Shown piece after piece: positions 15,597-17,178 of a DNA stretch of 36,534 nucleotides (the first letter of the stretch is position 1; every line of letters starts with the position of its first letter). The DNA lies in contig JAGNRZ010000008.1 of the NCBI GenBank assembly GCA_017988335.1, forward strand, positions 1-36,534, read 5' to 3'. Origin of the DNA: Ferruginibacter sp. (GTDB lineage Bacteria > Bacteroidota > Bacteroidia > Chitinophagales > Chitinophagaceae). The notes under the pieces were generated by a model, which saw only the letters and a program-made list of their open reading frames with translations, made no database searches and had not been told where the DNA came from. Both the position numbers and the translations under genes were made by a program.

Positions 15597-16070
15597 TTAC
15601 TCTCCTCTTAACACATTTACATTTCTACTAAAGCCTTCTTCTAACGAAATAAAGGTTTCTGTACGTTCTATTCCCTTTATCTTTTGCAGTTCATCGTGTA
15701 GTACATACCGTAATTGATTAATATCTTTACAAACAATTTCTATAAACATACTATAGTTGCCTGTTATATAATTTAGTCTAACTATTTCTGGTATTTTCAT
15801 CAGGTCTTTTGCAACACTATCATATAAATCACTTTTTTCTAAATAAATACCAACAAAAGCGGTGATATCGTAACCCAGTTGCTTTAAGTCAACATTTAAT
15901 TTTGTACCTTTAACTATACCAAATTCTTGTAGCTTTTTTATACGAACATGAATGGTACCGCCACTTACAAAAAGTTTTTTACCTAAGTCGGCATAAGATA
16001 CTTCTGCAGTTTCCATCATTTCATGAATGATTTGAAGGTCTAATTTGTCGAGATTTAATTTAGCAGCCAT
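15597..16070 (-). CDS. Lrp/AsnC family transcriptional regulator
   Basis: A 157-aa protein of normal Lrp length. The N-terminal helix-turn-helix is LDLQIIHEMMETAEVSYADLGKKLFVSGGTIHVRIKKL. It is followed by GIVKGTKLNVDLKQLGYDITAFVGIYL and a RAM effector-binding domain (residues about 65-150) with VRLNYITGNYSMFIEIVCKD and the C-terminal IKGIERTETFISLEE. It likely senses an amino acid and acts as a global or local regulator. It is convergent with the permease gene (2-bp gap) and divergent from the RNA gene at 16208; the AT-rich stretch 16071-16178 would hold its promoter, where I see no clear box. Confidence 0.94.
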   Translation of the reverse strand: MAAKLNLDKLDLQIIHEMMETAEVSYADLGKKLFVSGGTIHVRIKKLQEFGIVKGTKLNVDLKQLGYDITAFVGIYLEKSDLYDSVAKDLMKIPEIVRLNYITGNYSMFIEIVCKDINQLRYVLHDELQKIKGIERTETFISLEEGFSRNVNVLRGE

Positions 16071-16178
16071 TTTATAAAATTAAATTAGTATTATTTCAAT
16101 ATTTTATACAAATATTTAAATAATTTCTATATTTTCCAAATTTTTTATAAATTATTTTTAATATAATGGTATTTTATA

Positions 16179-16186
16179 TAGATTTG
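16179..16186 (+). promoter_or_regulatory. Promoter -7 box of the tRNA-like RNA
   Basis: TAGATTTG matches the Bacteroidota -7 consensus TAnnTTTG. A T-rich tetramer lies 19 bp upstream, where the -33 TTTG is expected. Transcription would start near 16193, about 15 nt before the cloverleaf. Confidence 0.6.
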
Positions 16187-16207
16187 TGTTACAATAGTTC
16201 TTAACAC

Positions 16208-16403
16208 TGTGGGGTGATGAAATTTTTGGCAGACATACCCTCTTGTCTCGAGGGTGGGGAGCCACGGATAAACATTGAGTAATGCCGGTATATCTGCAGG
16301 TGTACCGACTGGGGTCGACCACCAGGTTGAAATAGTTTAGCGACTGTTTCTTTTTTGCTCAAAGGCTAACGTCCCCGTGAAGGTTCGAACCCTTCCCCTA
16401 CAG
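16208..16403 (+). ncRNA. tRNA-like RNA with a very long variable region
   Basis: The ends and arms form a complete cloverleaf. Acceptor TGTGGGG (16208-16214) pairs with CCCTACA (16396-16402), 7 bp with one G-U. D stem ATG/CAT (16217-16219/16234-16236) has GG in its loop and U at position 8. Anticodon stem CCCTC/GAGGG (16238-16242/16250-16254) has the 7-nt loop TTGTCTC, with U33 and nominal anticodon GTC. T stem GAAGG/CCTTC (16379-16383/16391-16395) has the canonical loop TTCGAAC. Where the variable loop belongs there are about 124 nt (16255-16378), closed by GGGG/CCCC and AGCC/GGCT and containing three hairpins (CATT-GAGT-AATG; CGGTA/TACCG; CTGGGG-TCGA-CC-A-CCAG) and a U-rich stretch. CCA is not encoded. 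Local GC is well above the flanks, and a promoter and terminator bracket it. The body resembles tRNA-Leu, but anticodon and position-37 T do not fit it. Function unknown: unusual tRNA, tRNA mimic or regulatory RNA. Confidence 0.7.
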
Positions 16404-16411
16404 CTTTTTTT

Positions 16412-16442
16412 AGCCTTTCGATAAATATCGAAAGGCTTTTTT
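16412..16442 (+). terminator. Strong intrinsic terminator of the tRNA-like RNA
   Basis: AGCCTTTCGATA (16412-16423) is perfectly complementary to TATCGAAAGGCT (16426-16437) and is followed by a run of T ending at 16442. The 12-bp stem with T-tail is a clear rho-independent terminator on the plus strand and ends the RNA 9 nt after the cloverleaf. Confidence 0.9.
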
Positions 16443-16473: not shown

Positions 16474-17178
16474 ATGGCACAAAAAAAATTACTACGTTTT
16501 GCACAAATAAAAACCTTTGCCAATGTTTTGGAATATCCTCAAAACATGCAGGGAAAATGGAATACTTATTTTGAAAATGATAATCCAATAATATTAGAAT
16601 TAGCTTGTGGTAGAGGTGAATATACTGTTGGCTTATCAGCCTTATACCCCAATAAAAATTTTATAGGAGTAGATATAAAAGGCAATAGAATGTATATTGG
16701 TGCAAAAAAGTGTTTGGATAATAATTTAAGTAATGCTGCTTTTTTACGTACTCAAATAGAAATGCTACCTGATTATTTTGCTGCTAACGAAATAGATGAA
16801 ATTTGGATAACTTTTCCCGACCCTCAATTACGTACTTCAAAAGCAAAAAAAAGATTAACACACCCAAGGTTTTTACGCTTATACCAACAAGTGTTAAAGA
16901 AAGAAGGGTGCATTCATTTAAAAACAGACTCTCCTCATTTATTTAACTTTACCAAAAAAGTAATTGAACATTATGGGCTTTTACTTGTTGAAGAAAATAG
17001 TAATGTTTACCAATCAACAAATGTGTGGCAAGACTTACTAATAAAAACACATTACGAAAGTTTAGACATTGCTCAAAGTAAAAGAATTCATTACCTACAA
17101 TTTAAGCTGCCTAATCAAATTAAAGATATGGATGCTGTATTTCAAGAAATTTTAAAAGATGAAGAAAAAGCTGATTGA
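16474..17178 (+). CDS. trmB: tRNA (guanine-46-N7)-methyltransferase TrmB
   Basis: A 234-aa SAM-dependent methyltransferase that forms m7G46 in the tRNA variable loop. Motifs are LELACGRGEYTVGLSALYP (SAM-binding glycine loop), FIGVDIKGNRMYIGAKK, IDEIWITFPDPQLRTSKAKK with the catalytic FPDP segment, RLTHPRFLRLYQQVLKKEG and IHLKTDSPHLF. Length and motif order are normal for TrmB. It has its own promoter box just upstream and begins a set of tightly packed genes: the next reading frame starts inside its last 20 bp. The unusual tRNA-like RNA lies 70 bp upstream, but a terminator separates the two. Confidence 0.96.
   Translation: MAQKKLLRFAQIKTFANVLEYPQNMQGKWNTYFENDNPIILELACGRGEYTVGLSALYPNKNFIGVDIKGNRMYIGAKKCLDNNLSNAAFLRTQIEMLPDYFAANEIDEIWITFPDPQLRTSKAKKRLTHPRFLRLYQQVLKKEGCIHLKTDSPHLFNFTKKVIEHYGLLLVEENSNVYQSTNVWQDLLIKTHYESLDIAQSKRIHYLQFKLPNQIKDMDAVFQEILKDEEKAD

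Follow-up and report, generated by a model that had tools for sequence, protein, structure and literature searches.

Asparagine is known to be formed on tRNA in Thermus, Deinococcus and Bdellovibrio, where the pathway is described as comprising a non-discriminating aspartyl-tRNA synthetase (ND-AspRS), tRNA-Asn and GatCAB (PMC4206432). According to the same source, bacterial GatCAB reads the U1-A72 pair, and in delta-proteobacteria that possess AsnRS, GlnRS and asparagine synthetase the enzyme may be vestigial (PMC4206432). A survey of 14 Bacteroidetes reports gatCAB as absent from the GlnRS-bearing ones, with the exception of Salinibacter (PMC3927822). The strong determinants for AspRS are given as G73, G34, U35, C36 and C38 (PMC9976931). 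In E. coli, AsnC is described as an activator of the divergent asnA gene that is restrained by asparagine (PMC8707732).

Some tRNAs are non-canonical in form or dedicated to tasks outside translation. The acceptor-T stack of allo-tRNA and selC* tRNA is 8/4 or 9/3, and the non-proteogenic tRNA-Gly serves peptidoglycan. Longer acceptor and anticodon stems are described for allo-tRNA, selC* tRNA and tRNA-Sec (PMC7609411), all of which have a long variable arm.

A tRNA-like RNA gene with an enlarged variable arm

We analysed a stretch of 36,534 nucleotides from Ferruginibacter sp. (contig JAGNRZ010000008.1, positions 1 to 36,534; hereafter the window), in which neither ARAGORN nor Rfam, including RF00005, makes a call. 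A permissive cmscan of the region returned only six matches, all far under the cut-offs of their families. The RNA gene lies on the forward strand at 16208-16404, as do all its features given below, and forms a complete cloverleaf with a 124-nt variable region. An earlier reading made from the letters alone (the sequence-only reading) had placed this cloverleaf correctly to the base, and had given the extent of the variable region (16255-16378) exactly. The acceptor stem (TGTGGGG at 16208-16214, beginning with U1 and G2, paired with CCCTACA at 16396-16402) comprises seven pairs, one of them G-U, and its 5' strand is followed by U8 and G9. The D arm (16217-16236) is Leu-like, with a 3-bp stem (16217-16219/16234-16236) and GG in its loop. 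The anticodon arm (16238-16254) has a 5-bp stem (16238-16242/16250-16254) and the loop UUGUCUC (TTGTCTC, 16243-16249), which provides G34, U35, C36, U37 and C38. The T arm (16379-16395) carries the loop UUCGAAC, and the 3' strand of the acceptor end (16396-16404) closes with G73 and C74 at 16403-16404. The gene ends at C74, as do most host tRNA genes compared; the tRNA-Asn gene of one sample genome (G000) encodes CCA.

The 7/5 acceptor-T stack and the D- and T-loop consensus are those of a tRNA. In its body the RNA follows type II tRNA-Leu, and host tRNA-Leu genes share the D arm, the variable-arm stem directly after U44, and the GU that precedes a 5-bp T stem. It differs from tRNA-Leu in having G73 rather than A73, an Asp anticodon, a variable region of 38-125 nt and a conserved core loop within it. 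The Leu-like body, the Asp anticodon and the odd position 37 remarked upon in the sequence-only reading are all real. A non-canonical tRNA with a long variable arm calls to mind allo-tRNA, selC* tRNA and tRNA-Sec; the 7/5 stack and the normal 5-bp anticodon stem rule out membership of the allo-tRNA/selC* group.

Signals for expression flank the gene on the same strand. A Bacteroidota-type promoter -7 box TAnnTTTG, TAGATTTG, stands at 16179-16186, and a boxA-like leader motif of the GTTCTT type, GTTCTTAA, at 16197-16204. In the 90 nt before the gene, 121 of the 210 relatives with enough flank have TAnnTTTG and 81 have GTTCTT, where base-shuffled flanks lead one to expect about 5% per 70 nt for the former and about 2% per 70 nt for the latter. 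The sequence GTTCTTTGA also precedes the 16S gene of Niabella (L297:1511). Downstream, a 12-bp stem, AGCCTTTCGATA/TATCGAAAGGCT, followed by a T run forms an intrinsic terminator (16412-16442), and a terminator-like structure follows 88 of the 210 relatives. Both the box and the terminator had been recognised in the sequence-only reading.

The variable arm opens with a 4-bp stem; next come a bulge or an additional hairpin, a covarying stem of 2-3 bp, an internal loop of the type GAUAAA/CUAA and a distal part. In the window, stem 1 pairs 16256-16259 with 16373-16376; it covaries and is paired in 100% of alignment cells. Stem 2 and the 5' side of the core loop, GAUAAA, occupy 16264-16273, opposite 16365-16372 with CUAA, and all three pairs of stem 2 show both-sided changes in an alignment of 28 sequences. 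Stem 3 (16275-16282/16355-16362, enclosing 16275-16362) surrounds three hairpins at 16286-16307, 16309-16325 (which holds GGGUCGACCAC) and 16329-16350. The variable region of the 214 distinct elements collected below measures 38-125 nt, with a median of 88, apart from one aberrant copy with 7 nt. What is common to them is the stem with the GAUAAA/CUAA internal loop: the 5' core pattern is present in 196 of the 214 and the CUAA-type strand in 209, and a hairpin motif of the type GGGUYGACCA (GGGTYGACCA in DNA) in 140. This core loop may resemble the UAA/GAN motif. The distal part ranges from a plain hairpin in some relatives to the three-hairpin form of the window. The structured insert of the sequence-only reading is present; its three distal hairpins are one version of the distal part.

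Because the arm springs from a covarying variable-arm stem and holds a conserved internal loop, the insert is an enlarged variable arm and not an intron, so that the suggestion of a removable insert can be discarded. Group I introns of bacterial tRNAs normally lie in the anticodon loop and exceed 200 nt; here the insert is in the variable arm, with no Rfam intron match. The RNA is also distinct from tmRNA: its anticodon arm is complete, the tmRNA model of Rfam does not match it, and both sample genomes (G000 and Niabella) have a separate tmRNA, in the former at G000:C168:13509-13893.

A conserved RNA family with fixed and drifting positions

Relatives of the RNA were collected in several ways. 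By BLAST, 33 of 59 genomes, counting that of the window, have a DNA match, and pattern searches of named genomes matched at least 119 stretches; many Chitinophagaceae and Saprospiraceae and some Cyclobacteriaceae are among the 80 titles listed. With up to three mismatches allowed, the pattern matched in 30 of 395 genomes of the phylum, every one of which belongs to the class of the window. Twenty-eight diverse members served to build a covariance model; run over 295 genomes of this class, it gave family matches in 51 genomes, at 65.8-135.5 bits, and ordinary tRNAs at 62.4 bits or less, below a gap; ordinary tRNA-Leu is among those scored by the model (34-62 bits), in keeping with the Leu-like body. 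Presence of the RNA was defined as a match of at least 65.8 bits (matches are listed down to E ~8e-9), and the genomes so defined include G129, with a 78-nt aberrant copy, and G554, whose copy has a shortened anticodon loop. Nineteen low-scoring matches were checked as possible hidden members and rejected, since ARAGORN called 17 tRNA-Leu, one tRNA-Asp and one tRNA-Tyr.

Altogether, the family comprises 214 distinct elements from Bacteroidota and five viral records. This number, on which the nucleotide counts are based, was reached from 244 by removing exact duplicates, with one element containing N and, out of 100 model matches, the 7 of lowest score also left out. For many elements, the search or filter that yielded them had held part of the anticodon arm constant, and the sets found by the model (49) and by BLAST (24) were also counted apart.

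Folding of the single sequence shows a modest excess of stability (z of -1.7 against shuffles, with 11 of 200 shuffles as good). In the alignment of 28 sequences, by contrast, 96.1% of the cells are paired, falling to 46-56% when partners are slid, 15 of 31 pairs show both-sided changes, and the cells with such changes number 121 against 35.3 in shuffles. Compensatory changes occur in the acceptor, D (two of three pairs), T (two of five pairs, 100% paired) and variable-arm stems. These results confirm that the RNA of the window belongs to a conserved RNA family. They also settle the doubt, raised with the sequence-only reading, that homologues might be lacking or their arms might fail to covary: homologues were found and the stems covary, apart from the anticodon stem, in which the modelled set has one-sided variation only and no both-sided changes.

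Conservation is uneven along the molecule. The pairs U1-A72 and G2-C71 and the nucleotides G73 and C74 are invariant in 214 of 214 elements, and the acceptor pairs 3-7 vary, pairs 4, 5 and 7 widely. In the anticodon loop G34 is kept in 209, U35 and C36 in 213 each and C38 in 211 of the 214, and variants with A34, C34 or U34 occur. Of the 214, 198 have U33 and the other 16 have G or C there; U occupies position 37 in 203, and 207 carry a pyrimidine at it, so that the combination of U33 and a purine at 37 expected of a decoding loop is not retained. The 49 members found by the model scan show the same pattern of keeping and drifting as the full set: G34 in 47, U35 in 48, C36 in 48, C38 in 46 and U33 in only 38, with U, G, C and A at position 37 in 38, 6, 4 and 1, respectively.

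All strong AspRS determinants (G73, G34, U35, C36, C38) are thus in place. With tRNA-Asp the RNA shares the GUC anticodon, C38, G73 and G2-C71; it differs in its type II body, in its failure to keep U33 and R37, in having usually A10, and in having U1-A72 for G1-C72. Of the elements that help bacterial AspRS, G1-C72 is absent, with U1-A72 in 214 of 214, and G10 is rare, occurring in 12 of 214. Host tRNA-Asp has G1-C72 and host tRNA-Asn U1-A72, so that the RNA couples an Asp anticodon with the first pair of tRNA-Asn, the pair described as read by GatCAB.

In the viral records, exact pattern matches were found on four IMG/VR contigs and a diverged copy on a 636-kb phage. The RNA lies among ordinary tRNA genes in three of the five records; on the 636-kb phage a gene for a class II tRNA synthetase is close by as well. 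Phage records that match gatB number 14, and this phage is not one of them. One query of plasmids gave no match to the RNA. Other type II tRNA-like RNAs of 91-135 nt are present on RNA-bearing viral contigs (L181:9979-10113, L181:4587-4707, L183:3169-3299 and L183:2999-3089), with ends TAGTCAGG...CCTGACTAC or near to these; of these ARAGORN recognises just the 91-nt RNA, which it takes for tRNA-Leu.

Several loci have two or three copies. Degenerate second copies without a proper 5' acceptor strand lie downstream of intact ones at L003 (~1750), L008 (end), L028:1397 and L290:3056-3203, and in L290 the anticodon loop of one copy is shortened. The 78-nt relative in G129 (L278:3038-3115) has the loop CTATCTC and a 7-nt variable loop, is called tRNA-Asp(atc) by ARAGORN, and looks like a family member stripped of its arm. 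In G000 (C118:3265-4669, L214) 13 tRNA genes form a tight array that has the look of a mobile or phage-derived element; several duplicate tRNA species encoded at other places in the genome.

The AsnC-type neighbour and the occurrence of GatCAB

Upstream of the RNA and divergent from it, at a distance of 137 nt, the window encodes an AsnC-type transcriptional regulator (15597-16070, reverse strand; Pfam AsnC_trans_reg). The AsnC model NF008384 is its best match with 156.6 bits (cut-off 227), followed by 64.1 bits or less for other models, among them Lrp with 54.8. By tblastn, an AsnC-like gene lies beside the RNA in 124 of 182 loci, a number that includes places fetched more than once, and in 124 of 124 it is upstream and divergent, at 121-291 nt by alignment edge. 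This arrangement spans at least 15 families. For 11 of 11 scanned copies the AsnC model was the best, always under its cut-off, with 10 diverse copies at 150-188 bits. Fifty-one of the 182 loci have no AsnC gene beside the RNA; these are phages, many Saprospiraceae, family f76 and some second copies. The arrangement resembles the E. coli pair asnC-asnA, in which the regulator is likewise described as divergent from its neighbour (PMC8707732), with the difference that the neighbour here is an RNA gene and not an asparagine synthetase.

The interval at 16071-16207 of the window holds A+T-rich overlapping palindromes, and AAATATTT, a candidate AsnC operator, is found in 65 of 124 intergenic regions at a median of ~100 nt before the RNA. 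In one RNA-less genome (G110) an AsnC-type gene (137.3 bits) faces asnB (491.8 bits, cut-off 499) at 118 nt; AsnC near asnB was absent from the other 10 of 11 RNA-less genomes examined. The downstream neighbour in the window is trmB, for tRNA m7G46 methyltransferase (16474-17178, forward strand; NF001080, 237.9 bits, over the cut-off). Its cluster is present in 13 of 137 loci, so that it is not a steady companion, and no consistent protein partner other than AsnC emerged among the clustered neighbours of the 137 loci.

The AspRS and GatCAB identity set predicted a link with GatCAB, which we then tested by occurrence. In 58 chosen genomes gatB is present in 38 of 38 with the RNA (in Niabella as pieces below the cut-off) and in 6 of 20 without it. 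Across the 295 genomes of the class, the figures are 51 of 51 against 175 of 244 (165 over the cut-off), and most of the 175 RNA-less genomes with a gatB match lack GlnRS. The pattern is sharpest in the 101 genomes with GlnRS, where gatB at E <1e-120, a limit for canonical gatB chosen after the data were seen, is found in 26 of 26 RNA-bearing genomes and in none of the 75 RNA-less ones. Of these 75, 61 have no match, 6 a weak one, and 8, all of family f85, a divergent gatB; counted over the NCBIfam cut-off, the contrast is 26 of 26 against 8 of 75. Fisher tests, calculated without correction for the tree, give P of 1e-24 by the strict limit and ~2e-17 when f85 is counted as gatB-bearing. In the families f1, f22 and f75, which contain both states among GlnRS-bearing genomes, RNA and gatB match perfectly, an outcome reached about once in 7,000 by within-family shuffling. 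Similarly, gatA is over the cut-off in 26 of 27 RNA- and GlnRS-bearing genomes (in pieces in the 27th) and in 0 of 20 RNA-less ones outside f85; overall it is over the cut-off in 33 of 34 RNA-bearing genomes examined and in pieces in the 34th. Genomes with the RNA thus encode both GatA and GatB.

The gene gatB is 1.4 kb from the RNA in one locus (L081), and neither gatA nor gatB was near it in the other RNA loci examined, apart from stretches fetched for gatA. The f85 genomes (G463, G502, G533, G561, G587, G613, G636 and G659) combine GlnRS with a divergent gatB (E ~1e-105, over the cut-off), with no RNA detected; gatA in three of them reaches 424-434 bits (cut-off 481), and GatCAB of this family possibly serves another substrate. 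In Niabella defluvii (G452, CP079215.1) gatA and gatB come as separate frame pieces, and for asnS and asnB the match is partial, a fragmentation that perhaps reflects assembly error rather than gene loss.

AsnRS is encoded by 58 of the 58 chosen genomes, which, where GlnRS is present too, leaves GatCAB with no obvious other tRNA to serve. None of 12 AspRS proteins inspected (7 from genomes with the RNA, 5 from genomes without it) has the histidine that marks non-discriminating bacterial AspRS, and Asp-tRNA-Asn may therefore not be made.

Asparagine synthetases were surveyed in the same 58 genomes. Homologues of the broad family (TIGR01536) are present in 56, which gives no support to the idea of the RNA as the sole asparagine source for want of any synthetase homologue, and a need for another source is conjectural in RNA-bearing genomes, most of which have such homologues. 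Among the matches listed, an alignment pattern of the E. coli AsnB type was seen in 11 of 20 RNA-less genomes and in 0 of 38 with the RNA; 10 of the 11 share 71-100% identity with one of them, and the eleventh (G110) is distant. Against NF006949 (cut-off 499), two proteins of RNA-less genomes score 886 and 958 bits, and eight proteins from seven RNA-bearing ones stay below the cut-off at 239-312 bits. The E. coli-type AsnB pattern is also missing from four GlnRS-bearing genomes that have neither RNA nor gatB (G172, G075, G466 and G102).

A proposed role in asparagine synthesis

The sequence of the RNA, its gene neighbour and its occurrence pattern suggest that it serves to make asparagine. We infer expression, charging and amidation, and put the probability at roughly 0.6 that the RNA is a dedicated non-decoding tRNA which AspRS aspartylates and GatCAB amidates to asparagine, under asparagine-responsive control. 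After processing and addition of CA, the ordinary AspRS would read GUC, C38 and G73 and load aspartate; GatCAB would then read U1-A72, which tRNA-Asp does not have, and amidate the aspartate to asparagine on the RNA. An RNA that carries Asn but has an Asp anticodon would lead to Asp-to-Asn mistranslation. For this reason the loss of purine 37, the loss of U33 in various lineages and the bulky arm may all serve to keep the RNA off the ribosome, and it is probably non-decoding. Finally, the RNA would either release the asparagine or pass it on, so that the cell gains an asparagine supply that depends on RNA; the fate of the asparagine is the least certain step. By analogy with E. coli asnA, AsnC may switch the RNA on when asparagine is short. 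Of the three options left by the sequence-only reading, it is the specialised non-canonical tRNA that gains support, made specific by the AspRS and GatCAB determinants, the co-retention of GatCAB and the AsnC neighbour.

The main rival, in our view unlikely, is that the RNA acts as a scaffold or regulator of an AspRS-GatCAB complex, or as a reporter of Asp/Asn charging, with amidation taking place on tRNA-Asn. It would account for the AspRS and GatCAB determinants, for co-retention and for AsnC; the large conserved arm suggests a binding platform, and U1-A72 is also that of host tRNA-Asn. A scaffold would, however, have no need to keep G73-C74 and a complete acceptor end, and amidation on tRNA-Asn sits poorly with the universal AsnRS of the chosen genomes and with AspRS proteins devoid of the non-discriminating histidine.

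We consider it rather improbable that the RNA donates its amino acid to a non-ribosomal transferase acting on lipid, peptidoglycan or a tailored peptide, with GatCAB making the transferred asparagine. The non-decoding loop, the loci with two or three copies and the GatCAB link would all fit a donor. Yet no transferase recurs among the clustered neighbours of the 137 loci, and AsnC control points to free asparagine. Still less probable is a tRNA-mimicking regulatory RNA that is never charged, for example a sponge or RNase decoy: its huge arm, AsnC-linked position and presence in viral records would suit such a role, which leaves unexplained both the AspRS and GatCAB determinants fixed amid drifting stems and the gatB pattern. 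Finally, a true elongator, or a regulated mistranslation tRNA reading GAC/GAU as Asp or Asn, is very improbable in spite of the well-kept GUC core and the company of tRNA genes in viral records, because position 37 in most elements and position 33 in some have left the decoding consensus, A34, C34 and U34 variants occur, and G000 and Niabella each possess ordinary genes for tRNA-Asp(GUC), which also disposes of the RNA as a missing Asp elongator.

Asparagine synthesis on the RNA would parallel the tRNA-dependent pathway (PMC4206432) in that AspRS and then GatCAB act on a U1-A72 RNA, and would differ from it in that a separate RNA with an Asp anticodon replaces tRNA-Asn in organisms that have AsnRS and often GlnRS. 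Like the non-proteogenic tRNA-Gly, the RNA would be dedicated to a task outside translation; that tRNA carries another amino acid, is of ordinary size and involves no amidation step. We class the RNA as a kind of tRNA because both the cloverleaf and the enzymes are known; its proposed use is not known to have a precedent, and neither this use nor a description of such an RNA was found in the open-licence PMC literature (titles and abstract openings). Standard models for tRNA and other RNAs make no call on the family, which would account for its having escaped notice.

The wider proposal is tentative, and we would not put it quite at even odds: many families of one class may make asparagine on a tRNA excluded from the ribosome and release it, with AsnC sensing the product, which would explain why GatCAB is kept alongside AsnRS and GlnRS. 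This bears on the puzzle of vestigial GatCAB as posed in PMC4206432, since in GlnRS-bearing genomes of this class canonical GatB tracks the RNA, the divergent GatB of f85 apart. If the proposal is true, the RNA fills the role of the E. coli asparagine synthetase, a huge phage carries it too, and in many families of Bacteroidota a tRNA has evolved from decoding into an RNA cofactor of amino-acid synthesis.
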